From Bacteroidota bacterium (GTDB lineage Bacteria > Bacteroidota > Bacteroidia > 2-12-FULL-35-15), in NCBI GenBank assembly GCA_025363555.1, contig JANYDQ010000277.1, positions 1-36,453 of the forward strand: a stretch of DNA of 36,453 bases, in the 5' to 3' direction. The notes under the pieces were generated by a model. That model worked only from the letters and a program-made list of their open reading frames with translations, was not told where the DNA came from and did no database searches. How positions within the stretch are numbered: the first letter of the stretch is position 1; every line of letters starts with the position of its first letter. Position numbers and translations under genes: made by a program. Shown one piece after another: positions 12,336-20,314 of the stretch.

Positions 12336-12377
12336 CTTACAAAGAAAAAGAAAATAAATGAAGTGTGTAAGAAAATT

Positions 12378-12481
12378 TTAACCACAAAGCACACAAAGTT
12401 TTTAAACAGAGGTCGCTAAGGAAGTAATTGGTTTTTTTCTTTGTGTTCTTTTTGTAACCCCTTTGTGTACTTTGTGGTTAA
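12378..12481. repeat. ACCACAAAG long-hairpin element, copy 1
   Basis: The left arm at 12378-12398 (TTAACCACAAAGCACACAAAG, here split as TTAACCACAAAG plus CACACAAAG) pairs with 12461-12481 at 20 of 21 positions. A second CTTTGTGTTCTTT block at 12439-12451 offers an alternative pairing. It ends 7 nt downstream of the small gene at 12488. A direct second copy is at 12885-12987. Confidence 0.88.
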
Positions 12482-12487
12482 TTAAGT

Positions 12488-12841: not shown

Positions 12842-12884
12842 AATACTGCTTTTTTCCTCACCATTCCTTCCAGTTAAAAAAAAC

Positions 12885-12987
12885 TAACCACAAAGAACAC
12901 AAAGTTAATACACAGAGTTCACGAAGGCAGTAGGTGTTTTATTTTCTTTGTGTTCTTTGTGTAAACTCTTGGTGTGCTTTGTGGTTA
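12885..12987. repeat. ACCACAAAG long-hairpin element, copy 2
   Basis: The left arm TAACCACAAAGAACACAAAG (12885-12904) can pair with the outer right arm at 12972-12987 (15 of 16) or with an inner block at 12946-12962. It runs in the same direction as copy 1, 507 bp away, and shares internal words (ACAGAG, GAAGG, AGTA), so the two are homologous copies and not chance palindromes. Confidence 0.88.
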
Positions 12988-12994
12988 AATAAGT

Positions 12995-13165: not shown

Positions 13166-13202
13166 TTAAAATTGACTAATAAAAGGTAAAAATCAGGATT
13201 TC

Positions 13203-13412
13203 AGGAAGTTAACTGGGCTGTTCGGTAAACTTACTGCGCTGCCCGGTAAACTTACTGCGCTGCTTAGTAAACTTACTGCGCTGCCCGGTAAACTTACTGC
13301 GCTACTTAATAAACTTACTGCTTTGCTTAGTAAACTTACCGGACTGACCAGTAAACTTACTGCGCTGCCCGGTAAACTTACTGCGCTATTTAGTAAAACT
13401 ACCGGTGAAGTA
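13203..13412. repeat. 21-bp tandem array, ten units with exact period
   Basis: Ten 21-bp units start at 13203, 13224, 13245, 13266, 13287, 13308, 13329, 13350, 13371 and 13392 with no insertion or deletion; the consensus is GGTAAACTTACTGCGCTGCC plus C. On the plus strand one frame (13176-13427) is open and reads heptapeptides RKLTGLF, GKLTALP, GKLTALL, SKLTALP, GKLTALL, NKLTALL, SKLTGLT, SKLTALP, GKLTALF, SKTTGEV and then LKTN and stop. Several differences between units are synonymous. No ATG, GTG or TTG occurs in frame ahead of the array. Confidence 0.95.
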
Positions 13413-13466
13413 TTAAAAACGAATTAAAACCGGATTCGTAAATTCGTACCATTCGATATCTGTAAT

Positions 13467-16400
13467 CTACGCATCCAAATTTCCATATTCCAGTTTCTTC
13501 TTCTGGAAAAACAAAATTACTCTCAATACTATTATTAAGAAAGGAATATACATAGCCACTACCGGCAAGCCGAAATGTTTTAGAACAATAATAGATTTCC
13601 GTTTCAAACGTTCCGCAATTAAATACATAGCCGGAACCAGTAATAAAGTGAGCAGCGTTGCAAAACTCAAACCGAATATCATGGTCCACGAAAGCGGTCC
13701 CCAGAACACTACATTATCTCCCCCGAAATAAATATGAGGATTGCCGGAAGTAAGCAATGTTTCGAAATCAATATTTAATCCCACTGCCAGCGGAATCAAC
13801 CCAAGTATGGCAGCAGTAGCAGTTAATATTACGGGGGTCATCCTTGTGCGACCTGCTTCCACGGTAGCATCCCACAAACCCATTCCATTTGCCCGCGACA
13901 TCTCTGCAAACTCCACCAGCAATATTCCGTTTCGAACCACAATCCCCGCCAGAGCCACAATCCCGATACCTGTCATAACGATGCTCATGTCCATTTTAAA
14001 AATAGCAGTACCTAATAACACACCAATAACACTAAAGAATATTTCTGTCAAAATAATAAAAGGTTTTCCGATGGAATGAAATTGTAAAACCAAAATCAGC
14101 AATATTATTCCAAGCGAAGTTTTCATGGCACCGCCCAGGAAAGCACCTGTTTCGGCTTGTTCCACTTTGGAGCCTGTCATAGATACTTCCACATTCCCTT
14201 GTTTCTTATATCCTTTCAAAGCGTTTTCCACAGCAGCGGCTACTTCGTTTTCGTTATATCCGGCAGAAGCGTTGGAGGAAAGCGTAATCACCCGTTTCTG
14301 CATTTTCCGTTTTATACCATCGTAAGTATTACCATATTCAATATCGCAAAAAGCAGCAAGTGGCACACTTCTTAAAATGCCTCCTGAATTCATATCGCGA
14401 AAAGTAATTTTTAAATTGCGCAATGCTTCTATGTTGTTTCGCTGGTCGTATTGATAACGAATCTGGATAGGATACTCATCGTTAGCATCACGAAACTTGG
14501 AAGGCTTATCAATTCCGAAAACCGCATTTCTTATTTCCATTGCAATTTGCGAAGTAGATATTCCCTCCCTGTTGGCGCGCTCTCTGTCAATGTTAAAAAC
14601 AATTTCGGGTTTGTTACTTTCAAAATCAGATTTGAGGTTATCCACCCCCGGAATGTTTTGCCCGTCAAGAAAAAGTTTTAACCGAATGGAGTTGCTAACG
14701 AGGTCATCAAACTTATCACCCCGAATTTCAATGTTAATAGGTTTCTGAACGGGCGGACCTGCCTGTTCTTTTGCCACAGTAATATCTGCTCCCGGAATAT
14801 TCCATTTGAGTTTTTGAAGTTTTTCGAGGTATTCCATCGTAGATTTTCCTCCACGACTTTCAAAGCCGACAAATGAAATAGCAATCTTACCACGGTTTGG
14901 ATAATCGTTCTGGTCCTGGTCTTGCGGGTCGGTGGTTTGTTTGGTAACGTTGGTAATAATGGATTTTACCAATTTATTAGAATCGCCAAGCACTGAATTA
15001 ACTTTCATCTCCACTTGTTTCATCACCATGTTGGTCTTTAAAGGGTCTGTACCTGTAGGTAGTTTCACATACACAAAAACAAAGTTAGGGTCGCCCTGCG
15101 GGAAGAACACCACTTTAGGACTTCGAATTGCGAAAAATATAACAGTGAACACAAATAACACAAGAGTTCCTAGAAGGGCTAACCACGGGCGTTTTAGAAA
15201 GCGAATCAAAAAACGGGAATAACGTTCCCTGAATGCGGGCCAAAGTTTTGTTTGAAAAGCTTCGATAGCTTTGTACAAAAAGAAACGATGAAGCAACATA
15301 AAGAAGGCAAGGAAAATAGTGAAGTTTCCAAGTGCATAATGTCCTTTGGCGTAAGCCCATAAAACTATCAACCCATAAATAACCAACCTCATTTTGCCCA
15401 TCCTGCTTAGCTTTCCGTGATTGCGCTTTTCTTCTTCGTGAGGTTTCATAAAATCAACCGCAAACACAGGGTTAATAATATAAGCAACCACAAGGGAAGC
15501 AAGTAAAGTAGTGATTAAAGTAATAGGCAAATAAAACATAAACTTACCGATGATGCCGCTCCAGAAAGCAAGAGGAATGAACGGTGCGAGGGTGGTAAGT
15601 GTTCCGCTCAACACCGGAACAAACACTTCTCCAGCCGCCATCTTTGCAGCAGTTTTTATATCCCGCTCCCCGTTTTTAAATAGCCGGTGGGTGTTTTCAA
15701 TCACCACTATGGCATCGTCCACCACTATTCCCAGGGCAAGTAAAAAGGCAAATAATACAATCATATTTAACGTAAAGCCATACATCGGGAAAACCATAAA
15801 CGCCAGGAACATGGACAGGGGCACAGATGCCGCCACGAAGATGGCATTGTTCACTCCCATAAAAAACATAAGGATAAGAGTTACTAAAATAAATCCGATG
15901 ATGATTGTATTAATCAAATCGTGAAGAGTGCTTCTTGTTTTTTCCGACTGGTCGCCTGTAACAGTTACCTGAAGCGTGGAAGGCAACTCTTTCGAATCCT
16001 GCATTTGTTTAATGGCAGCCGTAATATTATCAGACGCTTCAATTAAATTTTCGCCCGAACGCTTTACAATGTTTAAGGTAATTACATTTTTCCCGGCAAG
16101 TCTTGCATAACTTTCCTGCTCGTGGGTTCCGTCCACCACCTCTGCAATGTCCTTTAAATAAAGCTTTGCATTGGTAGGAGAACTGATAACCAGGTTTTTT
16201 ATTTCATCAATGGTTTTAAATTCTGCTTTAATAGTAAGGTTGCGTTTCATGCCATCCATCGGAACCAAGCCCCCGGAAATGTTCAGGTTCTCCGAACCCA
16301 CCGCTCTTTGAATATCTCCAAGGGTAAGCGTTGCAGCCTGTAGTTTATACATATCCACGTTGATTTGTATTTCGCGCTCCAAATCTCCCACCATCACTAC

Positions 16401-16931
16401 TTTCGAAATTTGCTTCATAGACTCTATCTTGTCTTTCAGCAAATCACCATACTTCTTTAATTTATTCAAATCAATGTTTCCGGCAAGATTGACATACATA
16501 ATAGGTAAATCAGAAAAATTAACTTCCATCACATTAGGCTGGCGGGTTAAGTCTTTTGGCAAATCGGTTGCCGCTTTTTCCACCGCATCTTTTACCTTTT
16601 GTTTCGCCAACGGCACATTTACATCGGTATTAAACTCCACCATTATTACCGATACATCCTGCAAGGAAGTAGAATTTAATTTCTTTACTCCCGAAATAGA
16701 TTTTAATTGTTTCTCGATGGGTTTGGTTACAAGGTTTTCTATATTGGTTGGAGAATTGCCCACATATACCGTGTTCACGTAAATGGTTGGCACCACTATT
16801 TCCGGAAAACTTTCTTTGGGTAAATTATTGTAGGCGGATACACCCATGATACAAATAATGATAGTAAGCACATACACGCTTAACTTATTATCTATTGCCC
16901 AGCTTGATGGTTTAAATTCTTTGAATTTCAT
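13467..16931 (-). CDS. RND efflux pump, inner-membrane permease
   Basis: A protein of 1154 residues with the AcrB/HAE1-type layout: an N-terminal helix (SVYVLTIIICIMGVSAYNNL), a large periplasmic domain beginning LPKESFPEIVVPTIYV, a first helix bundle with the proton-relay pair in GIVVDDAIVVIENTHRL, then the duplicated second half. The length exceeds the usual 1030-1050; extra hydrophobic sequence between the halves (YGLIVLWAYAKGHYALG..., about residues 515-560) accounts for much of it. It exports drugs or lipids using the proton-motive force. It is the last gene of the tetR / tolC-like / adaptor / pump series, 70 nt after the adaptor. Confidence 0.95.
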   Translation of the reverse strand: MKFKEFKPSSWAIDNKLSVYVLTIIICIMGVSAYNNLPKESFPEIVVPTIYVNTVYVGNSPTNIENLVTKPIEKQLKSISGVKKLNSTSLQDVSVIMVEFNTDVNVPLAKQKVKDAVEKAATDLPKDLTRQPNVMEVNFSDLPIMYVNLAGNIDLNKLKKYGDLLKDKIESMKQISKVVMVGDLEREIQINVDMYKLQAATLTLGDIQRAVGSENLNISGGLVPMDGMKRNLTIKAEFKTIDEIKNLVISSPTNAKLYLKDIAEVVDGTHEQESYARLAGKNVITLNIVKRSGENLIEASDNITAAIKQMQDSKELPSTLQVTVTGDQSEKTRSTLHDLINTIIIGFILVTLILMFFMGVNNAIFVAASVPLSMFLAFMVFPMYGFTLNMIVLFAFLLALGIVVDDAIVVIENTHRLFKNGERDIKTAAKMAAGEVFVPVLSGTLTTLAPFIPLAFWSGIIGKFMFYLPITLITTLLASLVVAYIINPVFAVDFMKPHEEEKRNHGKLSRMGKMRLVIYGLIVLWAYAKGHYALGNFTIFLAFFMLLHRFFLYKAIEAFQTKLWPAFRERYSRFLIRFLKRPWLALLGTLVLFVFTVIFFAIRSPKVVFFPQGDPNFVFVYVKLPTGTDPLKTNMVMKQVEMKVNSVLGDSNKLVKSIITNVTKQTTDPQDQDQNDYPNRGKIAISFVGFESRGGKSTMEYLEKLQKLKWNIPGADITVAKEQAGPPVQKPINIEIRGDKFDDLVSNSIRLKLFLDGQNIPGVDNLKSDFESNKPEIVFNIDRERANREGISTSQIAMEIRNAVFGIDKPSKFRDANDEYPIQIRYQYDQRNNIEALRNLKITFRDMNSGGILRSVPLAAFCDIEYGNTYDGIKRKMQKRVITLSSNASAGYNENEVAAAVENALKGYKKQGNVEVSMTGSKVEQAETGAFLGGAMKTSLGIILLILVLQFHSIGKPFIILTEIFFSVIGVLLGTAIFKMDMSIVMTGIGIVALAGIVVRNGILLVEFAEMSRANGMGLWDATVEAGRTRMTPVILTATAAILGLIPLAVGLNIDFETLLTSGNPHIYFGGDNVVFWGPLSWTMIFGLSFATLLTLLLVPAMYLIAERLKRKSIIVLKHFGLPVVAMYIPFLIIVLRVILFFQKKKLEYGNLDA

Positions 16932-16971
16932 AATTTAATTTCTTTTTCTTTTTTGTTTAAATCCTGCAATC

Positions 16972-16990
16972 TCTCCCTTCGGGGAGGTAA
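16972..16990. repeat. Short CTCCC-TTCG-GGGAG hairpin in the efflux operon
   Basis: CTCCC (16973-16977), a TTCG tetraloop and GGGAG (16982-16986) lie in the 70-nt gap between the adaptor and pump genes. It belongs by appearance to the CT-rich intergenic repeats. On the minus strand no clear T-tract follows, so a full terminator is unlikely. Confidence 0.6.
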
Positions 16991-17000
16991 GGAGGTTTTT

Positions 17001-18104
17001 TTATTTTTTATACACCACCGCACCACCATCTATTACCAAATCATATCCTGCTGTAACCAGCACATCGCCTTCTTTTAAACCAGATGTAATCTCTGCCATT
17101 CCGTTATATTCTTTACCAATAGTTACCAGTTGTTTTTTAGCCACATTGCCCTGTGCCACATATACAAAAGGTAAATTACTTTCATCTTTCTGAATTGTTT
17201 TTACAGGAACAATAATTAATGGAGCCCCGGATTGATAATCATTAATGTTCAATTTAGCAACCATGTTCGGGTGGTATTCTTTTTTATCATCCAGAAAAAC
17301 TTCTACTGTAAACGAACGGGTGTTGGTATTAATGGAACGCGACACAAAATTTACTTTTGTAACCAACGAATCATTGGTGTCAGGGAAACGAACAATTACT
17401 TCACTTCCTTTTTTAATTTTAGAAGCATAACTTTCTGCCACATCTGCCTTTACTTTCAAATTCGAAAAATTAATAATTCGAACCGAAGGCAAACCCGGCA
17501 TCACCATTTGTCCTAATTTAATATCTACTGCATCTACTGTTCCGTTTATGGGCGAAATAACTTTAGACATGCGCAACTGCTCATTCAGTGCACCCATTTT
17601 TTTCTCCATGCTTTCCTTATTTGTTTTTGCCTGCAGAAACTGCACTTCTGTTCCTATCTTTTGGTCCCATAAGTTTTTTTGTTTATCATAAATCTGGTTC
17701 ACCAAATCTGCATTGGTTTGCAAATCCGACATCTGCTGACTGATAGCCTTTGCATCCGTTTCTGCAAGCACATCTCCTTTGTGCACTTCATCTCCTACTT
17801 TCACATTTATCTTTGTTACTGTTCCTGGCATTTCCGAAGAGATGCTCACGTTCTCATCTGCATCTACCCTGCCCACCACATCAATATAATTTTTGAAGGT
17901 AGCGGCTTTTAAAGTTTCTACAGAAATGGCAACTCCATTTTGAGCAGAATCGCCTTTGTTAATTTCTGCCTCCAGTGCAGCTATCTTCGATTTGATTTCG
18001 GCTTCTTGTTTTTTCAAGGCGGTTAATTCATCGTTTTTATCAACAGGCTTGGAACAAGCTACCAGCATTGAAATTACACTTACTGCTACTATTATTTTTT
18101 TCAT
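17001..18104 (-). CDS. RND efflux periplasmic adaptor (membrane fusion) lipoprotein
   Basis: A protein of 367 residues with a lipoprotein signal ending in LVAC (Cys17), followed by a short coiled coil (ELTALKKQEAEIKSKIAALEAEI). The barrel-sandwich half-motif GTVTKINVKVGDEVHKGDVLAETD lies near 90-113, the alpha-helical hairpin at about 115-175, and the second half-motif (VISPINGTVDAVDIKLGQMV) after it. Beta-barrel and membrane-proximal domains close the chain. It bridges the RND pump and the TolC-like channel in the periplasm. It sits between those two genes; a copy of the ACGAATTACGAAT repeat lies 38 nt upstream of its start. Confidence 0.94.
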   Translation of the reverse strand: MKKIIVAVSVISMLVACSKPVDKNDELTALKKQEAEIKSKIAALEAEINKGDSAQNGVAISVETLKAATFKNYIDVVGRVDADENVSISSEMPGTVTKINVKVGDEVHKGDVLAETDAKAISQQMSDLQTNADLVNQIYDKQKNLWDQKIGTEVQFLQAKTNKESMEKKMGALNEQLRMSKVISPINGTVDAVDIKLGQMVMPGLPSVRIINFSNLKVKADVAESYASKIKKGSEVIVRFPDTNDSLVTKVNFVSRSINTNTRSFTVEVFLDDKKEYHPNMVAKLNINDYQSGAPLIIVPVKTIQKDESNLPFVYVAQGNVAKKQLVTIGKEYNGMAEITSGLKEGDVLVTAGYDLVIDGGAVVYKK

Positions 18105-18141
18105 CTTTGCTATATTGTTAAATTGTTTTATTGTTATGTGT

Positions 18142-18179
18142 TACTACGAATTACGAATCTAAACGAATTACGAATTGTT
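18142..18179. repeat. ACGAATTACGAAT repeat, copy 2 (upstream of adaptor gene)
   Basis: Nearly identical over about 36 nt to the copy at 10025-10062 (three mismatches by eye). It occupies the 146-nt gap between the TolC-like and adaptor genes. Confidence 0.87.
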
Positions 18180-18250
18180 AAACTTTATGTTTTATTGTTA
18201 TCTTGTTTTTAAAGTACTACCTAATGAACCAATGACCAATGAACTAATAA

Positions 18251-19594
18251 CTACTTAAGATTTCCGTTTGCTTTGTCAAAATCTATTTTTGCAATTATGG
18301 CATCATATAGCGCACTTATATAATTGGTTTGTGCTTCTTTCAATGCCGTTTCTGCATTCAATACTTCCAGGTTGCTTCCTACTCCGGCATCGTATTTTTT
18401 CTTTGCTACCGATGCCACATCTTCTGCTATGGCAATATTTTTCTTTTGGTTTTCCAGTGATGCAGCCGAATTAGTTAGGTTGGTGGTGCTTGTAGCCAAC
18501 TCCAGGTCAATAGATTTTTTGATAAACTCCATGTTGTTCTCTGCTTTTTGCACATTAAGTTTCGCCTGCTGAACTTTCACATTTTTCAAAAACCCGTTGA
18601 ATATTGGCACCTTAACGGTTACACCAATTATAGCGGTAGGATACCATGGGGTAGTACGATCAAAAAGGTCAAATTTCGAACGATACGCATTCTCGCTCAA
18701 ACTACCATAAGCAAAAGCGTAAGGAAGGTATGCATACTTTTTCCGTTTCAAATCCACCTTTGAAAGTTTAAAACTTGTTTCCATTATTCCATATTCTATC
18801 CTCTTCGAATAATCAAATTTATCAGACCCTGCAGCAGGCAAATCCACCTTCATATCTTCCAGTTTGTCTGTCAATGTAAGGTCGGCATTTATTTCCATTC
18901 CCATCTGGTACTTTAATAAATACATTCCTGTGCTTAACAATCTGTCCACTTTTTCTTTTTCTACCAACAGGTTATTGTATGCTACCGTTAACCGGTCGAA
19001 ATCTATTTTCTCCACAAAACCGTTATCCATCAATGCTTTTGTGTCGTCCATTGTTTTTTTCAATCGTGCAATGTTTGCATCTAATAGTTTTACTCTTTCA
19101 TTACTTACCAATACCATGTAATAAGCTTTGCTCACAGTAGCAGCAACTTCCACTTTGGTGCGGGCAATAGCTCGAGTGGAAAGTTCGATATAGAGTTTGG
19201 AACCTTTTAATCCTGAAAAAAACTCGGCATTAAATAACAACTGGCTGGCATCCGCCCCTGCAGCAGCCTGGTAGGGTGCGCCAAATTTCAACACCGCATC
19301 AGAACCTGGTTGTCCGCCAAACAAACCACCTGCACCCGGTATTACTGTGGTAGGAAACTCCACAAAATCTTTTACATCAAAACTTGCATTGATTTGCGGC
19401 AAGCCCGAAGCCCTTATTTCTGCTACTGTTTTATGCGCCAGCTCTTCATCTATCATTGAATTTTTTATATCGTGCTGGTTTTGCATGGCAAAATCTACTG
19501 CCTGCTTTACCGAAAAAGAATAGCTCGATTTTGTTTGGGCAAATGAGTTGAGGATTGATATTGTTAATCCAAGTACTAAAATTATTTTTTTCAT
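18251..19594 (-). CDS. TolC-family outer-membrane efflux channel
   Basis: A protein of 447 residues with a signal peptide ending near NSFAQ. It shows the duplicated outer-membrane-efflux layout: long amphipathic helices (for example VEVAATVSKAYYMVLVSNERVKLLDANIARLKKTMDD and the matching second-half helix ENQKKNIAIAEDVASVAKKKYDAGVGSNLEVLNAETAL) and short barrel strands. The YDAGVGSNLEVLNAE segment is a hallmark of this family. It provides the outer-membrane exit duct for the adjacent RND pump and adaptor. Confidence 0.94.
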   Translation of the reverse strand: MKKIILVLGLTISILNSFAQTKSSYSFSVKQAVDFAMQNQHDIKNSMIDEELAHKTVAEIRASGLPQINASFDVKDFVEFPTTVIPGAGGLFGGQPGSDAVLKFGAPYQAAAGADASQLLFNAEFFSGLKGSKLYIELSTRAIARTKVEVAATVSKAYYMVLVSNERVKLLDANIARLKKTMDDTKALMDNGFVEKIDFDRLTVAYNNLLVEKEKVDRLLSTGMYLLKYQMGMEINADLTLTDKLEDMKVDLPAAGSDKFDYSKRIEYGIMETSFKLSKVDLKRKKYAYLPYAFAYGSLSENAYRSKFDLFDRTTPWYPTAIIGVTVKVPIFNGFLKNVKVQQAKLNVQKAENNMEFIKKSIDLELATSTTNLTNSAASLENQKKNIAIAEDVASVAKKKYDAGVGSNLEVLNAETALKEAQTNYISALYDAIIAKIDFDKANGNLK

Positions 19595-19693
19595 CTTATA
19601 ATTATATGGTTATATGGCTGTATTGTTATAGGATTATATTGTTATTACTAAGCTTGTCAGCAATACGACAATAAAACAATATGACAATTTATT

Positions 19694-20314
19694 TTATTCG
19701 TCTTCCGTTACCTGTTTATATTTATTAATCATTTTATGTCCTTTGATGGTGCATATTCCGTGAAGGAAATGGTCAAGCATAGCCAACTGAATATCTACCA
19801 TCTTAAATTTTTCAGGAGGAAATATTTCAGGATTCATGCCCATTACTATTTGTTCTATTCTTAATATAGACAGTACTTTCGAATTAATATCTTCTCTTAC
19901 CAGTCCTTCTTTAATTCCTCTTTTTATAGCTCCTTCCACCATGCCTTCCATACAATCTTCTTTAAATTTCATAAATTGTTTCCATGCGTTGGGATGGTAT
20001 TTTTGCAAATCATAAAATATATTGGGGTTTACTTTGCCAAACATTGTCCCCATGTGTTTCATTAAATTCATTACCTCTTCAATAACATTGGCTGAATTTT
20101 TTGTAATATCGTTCAGTTCGCATTTGTCTTTATTCAACCCTTCTTTCATTAATGTTTCCACCACTTCGTTTTTATCTTTAAAAAAAAGATAAATGGTTTT
20201 TTTGGACATGGCAAGGTGTTTGGCAATGTCGTCCATGGTAATGCTTTTGATACCGTATTTAAAAAACAACACTTCTGCTGCTTCTAAAATACGTTCTTTT
20301 GTCGGGGTTTCCAT
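19694..20314 (-). CDS. TetR/AcrR-family transcriptional regulator
   Basis: A protein of 206 residues. The N-terminal helix-turn-helix (about 5-50: TKERILEAAEVLFFKYG, ITMDDIAKHLAMSKKTIYLFF) is typical TetR, followed by an all-helical ligand and dimer domain. It is the first gene of the series leading to the RND efflux genes, 100 nt ahead of the TolC-like gene. By analogy with AcrR-type repressors it probably senses an efflux substrate and represses its own operon. An inverted repeat GGAAAC-N16-GTTTCC lies on its promoter and is a natural candidate operator. Confidence 0.93.
   Translation of the reverse strand: METPTKERILEAAEVLFFKYGIKSITMDDIAKHLAMSKKTIYLFFKDKNEVVETLMKEGLNKDKCELNDITKNSANVIEEVMNLMKHMGTMFGKVNPNIFYDLQKYHPNAWKQFMKFKEDCMEGMVEGAIKRGIKEGLVREDINSKVLSILRIEQIVMGMNPEIFPPEKFKMVDIQLAMLDHFLHGICTIKGHKMINKYKQVTEDE

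Follow-up and report, generated by a model that had tools for sequence, protein, structure and literature searches.

Intergenic tandem arrays of Bacteroidota that hold to a 21- or 42-bp period and vary freely in sequence

It is well supported that certain lineages of Bacteroidota carry intergenic, non-coding tandem arrays that are locked in their period, at 21 or 42 bp, and blind to the sequence they repeat. Here we describe one such array within a 36,453-bp stretch of DNA (the window), which is a complete contig (C279) from a 4.3-Mb draft genome, together with its counterparts elsewhere in the phylum, where the trait is patchy yet wide and extends over several families. As to their origin, we give roughly even credence to the idea that these minisatellites stem from duplications measuring two or four turns of the helix, and that they are kept in phase thereafter. 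We recognised no description of period-locked 21-bp arrays in the open-access literature.

The window array and its surroundings

The array occupies positions 13206-13415 (no strand assigned) and consists of ten 21-bp units with the consensus AAACTTACTGCGCTGCCCGGT and with a lag-21 identity between units of 0.735. It is real, given that it scored 260 in TRF as against a maximum of 68 over 100 dinucleotide-shuffled versions of the window. Its head-to-tail units fall into the size range of minisatellites (about 10-100 bp), and since they abut one another, the unique spacers of a CRISPR array are missing. The sequence-only reading had described ten exact units free of indels and had counted them as the second 21-bp array of the window, and both statements hold: a looser array at 186-318 (likewise no strand assigned) has a 21-bp period, a 63-bp higher order and an unrelated unit. 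The same reading had pointed to an open plus-strand frame of KLTAL heptads, which we likewise recover from stop to stop at 13176-13427 and judge not to be a gene, as it comes without a start, a codon-phase bias or a protein family above cut-off. The frame opens behind a TGA at 13173-13175, reads KLTGLFG KLTALPG KLTALLS KLTALPG KLTALLN KLTALLS KLTGLTS KLTALPG KLTALFS KTTGEVL across 13206-13415, and continues after the tenth unit with KTN and a TAA at 13425-13427. K-L-T is thus indeed kept in nine of the ten units. No in-frame ATG, GTG or TTG precedes the array, as had been said, the sole in-frame TTG lying within it (13323-13325). A plasmid collection searched with the KLTAL peptide gave no match.

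The long gap that holds the array also contains a match to the Flavo-1 RNA family (RF01705; 12742-12839, minus strand; 58.3 bits, gathering score 42). A remnant of the type IX secretion sorting domain Por_Secre_tail (PF18962; 12995-13162, minus strand; 31.5 bits, cut-off 27) adjoins the array, the remainder of its gene being absent. Besides, two long palindromic copies of a AACCACAAAG...CTTTGTGGTT repeat are located at 12371-12485 and 12875-12993, for which Rfam returned unrelated miRNA models only, and an inverted pair, GAGATTCCTCACTTCGTTCGGAATGACA / TGTCATTCCGAACGAAGTGAGGAATCTC, is found at 61-165, directly ahead of the 186-318 array. Positions 13467-20314 are occupied by what we take, by eye, to be an RND efflux operon comprising an inner-membrane pump, a membrane-fusion protein, an outer-membrane channel and a TetR-like regulator.

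Recurrence of the period across genomes

The KLTAL peptide was used as a proxy probe, which detects only units that resemble it by chance. Of the 36 genomes in the window's genus, eight gave matches; at a first look, candidates numbered 27-61 in these eight genomes versus 0-9 in the other 28. The matches that were fetched turned out to be 21-bp arrays (one of them 42-bp) with different units, many of which contained stops. In sampled stretches scanned with TRF, which overlooks arrays that have less than about three copies or whose copies are less than about 70% alike, a period of 21 or 42 bp was seen in 16/26 arrays of G034 (340 kb), 10/13 of G032 (200 kb), 7/7 of G000 (89 kb), 2/3 of G022 (40 kb) and 2/4 of G024 (18 kb). 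In G018, which is counted as a bearer, 140 kb contained six arrays, none of which had either period at the threshold applied, and the four array-free species likewise had six arrays in 360 kb, none of them at 21 or 42 bp. A tree of a neighbouring protein (30 rows) placed the bearers in one clade of the genus with a support of 89/86; it includes six of the eight, because G018 and G019 were without the protein used. Those relatives of the genus that carry a name are MAGs of uncultured Bacteroidetes or Bacteroidia, some of them lake-derived according to their isolate names, and two, RH-15aug16-189 and RH-23may17-974, correspond to G032 and G034, both of which bear arrays.

Outside the genus, four bearers were found among 395 genomes of the class, and sampled stretches of G161, G219 and G150 contained single arrays. 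A phylum-wide draw of 395 genomes contributed three further matches (G436, G541 and G568), which were 21-bp arrays with, again, other units. In G299, which belongs to another family and whose relative G417 also bears arrays, 94 of the 97 arrays with periods of 10-70 bp within 393 kb had a period of 21 bp (79 arrays) or 42 bp (15 arrays). This corresponds to about 240 such arrays per Mb and 4.2% of the sampled bases, densities that lean upward, as do those for the stretches of G000, G022 and G024 and for part of G032 and G034, because part of the contigs (in G000, G022 and G024, all) were chosen for having shown a match; contigs C2-C4 of G299 were selected independently of matches. The lag-21 identities of true 42-bp arrays range over 0.14-0.52, well under their lag-42 identity. 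For the listed arrays of 21 and 42 bp, lag-7 identity came to 0.10-0.45, so that these are not built of 7-bp units.

Length, sequence and placement of the arrays

The units are mostly unrelated to one another, even within a single genome: in G299, only 8 of 3081 unit pairs agreed at no less than 16 of their 21 positions, a level that no pair attained in a single shuffled set. A few units are common to different species. Their length, by contrast, is held. When units were compared with their consensus in 136 arrays, substitutions outnumbered indels by 2646 to 62 (~43:1), as opposed to 530 to 92 (~5.8:1) in the intergenic DNA of close species pairs in the genus (Fisher p 3e-31, with some species entering several pairs and the events not all independent). 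For the window's genus alone, 1118 substitutions and 9 indels were counted within arrays. The period is already present in the smallest possible repeats, as 13 of 13 two-copy pairs of period 19-90 outside arrays and long ORFs in array-bearing genomes were at 21 or 42 bp; nine more pairs had periods of 16-18, where chance matches are expected, and the array-free set also contains one 21-bp pair.

Most arrays are intergenic and lie in gaps of every orientation, both in G299 and in the samples from the genus, with gene positions for these counts being defined by a simple ORF rule rather than by a gene finder; at least three sampled arrays fall within long reading frames. In G299, an array is found in 28 of the 47 gaps that measure 150 bp or more and in none of the 97 shorter ones. 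Median array lengths were 187 bp for the 21-bp and 221 bp for the 42-bp type. The same variants come back in every other unit, and for many arrays 42 or 63 bp is a better fit than 21, a pattern of the kind that block duplication produces. Several arrays stand beside genes for helical-looking proteins (by eye) of about 200-320 aa, including L049:7990-8649, L051:18563-19234, L053:10209-11159 and L132:14974-15585, among others; a Pfam search with ten such array-side proteins returned a single match over the cut-off, to a CarboxypepD_reg domain in one of them.

Origin of the arrays

With 10.5 bp per turn of the DNA helix, 21 and 42 bp amount to two and four turns. Under the account that we favour, a process active in bearing lineages would duplicate any intergenic DNA it meets, two or four helical turns at a time. 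In-register block duplication, giving rise to the 42- and 63-bp higher order, would enlarge the arrays to about 6-11 copies, substitution would make their units diverge, and copies that fall out of register would be lost. The two-copy pairs at 21 and 42 bp favour a lock that is set by the maker of the arrays, although they may also be leftovers of arrays since lost. Whether the maker could be a dedicated, sequence-independent DNA ruler, i.e. an enzyme or nucleoprotein that tandem-copies exactly two (or four) turns, keeps phase and converts a large share of the longer gaps into phased arrays, is a more doubtful matter, to which we attach limited confidence. Two candidate agents were discarded, namely reverse transcriptase (PF00078), which the strongest bearers lack, and Y1 transposase (PF01797), which occurs in bearers and non-bearers alike. 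Nor do the arrays show the dispersed shared palindrome of a REP/Y1 system, their units being mostly unrelated.

We rank this duplication step above its main rival, selection for phased DNA, which we consider possible at a tentative level only. Here, duplications of any length would arise and only those of 21 or 42 bp, which keep phase, would be retained in the service of nucleoid organisation or gene insulation, be it that one side of the helix serves as the contact surface for a nucleoid protein or filament, or that in-phase repetition sums small bends. The indel deficit favours selection on the product: indels are about sevenfold below expectation despite common substitutions, which is easier to understand under phase selection than under a mutational step alone. 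That both periods are whole turns at 10.5 bp, and that arrays occupy so many of the larger gaps of G299, speaks for phase selection as well. Yet the two-copy pairs are at 21 or 42 bp before an array function is plausible, and the units had no excess of intrinsic bend over dinucleotide shuffles under two wedge models. Besides, conserved placement did not emerge from the comparisons: the position in G034 that is orthologous to the window gap has different genes and is array-less. In G034 and G032, arrays with unrelated units lie upstream of a gene that we took by eye for an ECF-type sigma gene, with only ~90 bp around its start aligning; such arrays also lie upstream of tilS in G000 and G034, where only ~45 bp around the start align. 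However, we rejected conserved placement at these two genes, as other bearers are array-less there, the alignments are short and coincidence is possible. As a separate matter, spectral power at 21 and 10.5 bp was raised over a column-permutation control for A, T and purine profiles; this hint of sub-helical A/T phasing was set aside and not used, because the control destroys base runs and because A+T content did not show the increase.

That the arrays might act as RNA, with 21-nt units that are transcribed, fold into hairpins and influence mRNA stability or termination, appears unlikely to us. Dyads are enriched: in G299, the longest dyad arm reached at least 6 bp in 18% of the 21-bp and 43% of the 42-bp arrays compared with 4% and 17% of intergenic controls, and the 42-bp arrays of the genus scored 6.09 versus 4.21 when shuffled. 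This enrichment is clear in 42-bp arrays, however, and weak in 21-bp ones, most of whose units lack a notable dyad (p<0.05 in only 2 of 26 sampled). Moreover, divergent gaps carry arrays too, and Rfam found no match to the window array up to E=1.

Less probable still is that the arrays are mobile elements of the MITE type that enclose a minisatellite, in the manner of BrickBuilt, a reading that we rejected on the strength of flank tests, in which the arrays revealed no common ends, shared or private. A dispersed inverted-repeat element of G299 (L212:7040-7560, core GCGAAGGGGCGATTGCCTGTCAG), present in many copies, lies on both sides of two arrays, and one array is bounded by long private inverted flanks, as a mobile element would have it. 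But this element adjoins just 4 of 94 arrays, inverted flank scores of at least 20 were obtained for only 4 of 126 arrays, and units vary among arrays, whereas a mobile minisatellite would bring its unit along.

The remaining option, that the window array encodes protein, was raised by the sequence-only reading, which regarded the base changes as often synonymous and selection-like and left the choice between an exapted or decayed coiled-coil-like protein and a non-coding element. An open KLTAL frame is trivial, because any frame free of stops in a single 21-bp unit stays open through all of them, and two of the six frames are in fact open through the array, KLTAL on the plus and AVSLPGS... 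on the minus strand. Across units, the codon-substitution pattern lacked any third-position concentration, column variability summing to 1.3, 1.1 and 1.6 for codon positions 1, 2 and 3 (permutation p 0.73), and the impression of synonymous change is accordingly not borne out. We extended the codon-phase and open-frame tests to 58 non-redundant arrays from the window genome and related genomes, none of which displayed codon-phase concentration at p<0.05 and eight of which had no open frame at all (9.65 expected after column shuffling). Open frames were slightly commoner than in column permutations (mean 2.28 versus 1.94 per array, reached in 1 of 200 permutations), a surplus in favour of coding that may simply reflect dinucleotide bias, which column permutation does not preserve. 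A search for the same heptad revealed no second array of this unit in its own genome, and the relatives found with the KLTAL peptide are full of stops (7 TGA, 8 TAG and 11 TAG within single matches), meaning that copies elsewhere do break the frame, which the sequence-only reading had named as evidence against coding. Pfam yielded only sub-threshold matches for the KLTAL frame (PF04513 at 22.2 bits, cut-off 38). For all its open frame and its nine K-L-T units, an exapted or decayed heptad-repeat protein is thus close to refuted by the missing start, the even variation over codon positions and the stops in relatives. The window array is non-coding: it conserves the precise length of its unit, but neither codons nor sequence, and the KLTAL frame is a by-product that arises because the period equals seven codons.

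Discussion

Within one genome, ordinary minisatellites have many periods. The arrays described here resemble such VNTRs in their tandem structure and their higher-order block duplication, but differ in that arrays with unrelated units hold to nearly the same period and have a strong deficit of indels. Within the Bacteroidota, BrickBuilt, a 23-nt minisatellite MITE of Porphyromonas gingivalis with 19 copies per genome, is similar in that its copies, which are always intergenic and apparently non-coding, are made of short, spacerless head-to-tail units, yet these copies share one unit, a leader, a tail and terminal inverted repeats (PMC4596501). In the present arrays, by contrast, the period is 21 or 42 bp, units are mostly unrelated and ends are not shared; neither dispersed copies of the same unit nor a common leader and tail bearing terminal inverted repeats were found.

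The nearest precedent for a preference of length without one of sequence is offered by heptanucleotide repeats, for which a proposal is reported that the polymerase contacts its template over a length of 7 nt; the TAACTGA arrays of Beggiatoaceae described there have one shared sequence (PMC4679880). Our arrays have a preferred unit length in common with these repeats, and differ in their units of 21 or 42 bp, which diverge by substitution rather than by indel. In G036 (L221-L224), 10 of 17 arrays in 80 kb were heptamer arrays of several units, which are perhaps the same phenomenon at one-third of the length, and heptamer arrays were also numerous in G032.

Tandem repeats are usually viewed as products of slippage or recombination that follow no fixed step and drift in length. 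Here it is the length that is near-invariant and the sequence that is free, which applies to many arrays in each genome that bears them and to several families of the phylum. A practical caution follows for gene finders and human readers alike, in that 21-bp arrays mimic open heptad-repeat proteins. For the biology of these bacteria, the constancy of length points either to duplication by a helical ruler or to a genome-wide need for phased intergenic DNA, either of which would be new, and the existence of array-rich and array-free sister species within one genus turns the choice between them into a testable question.
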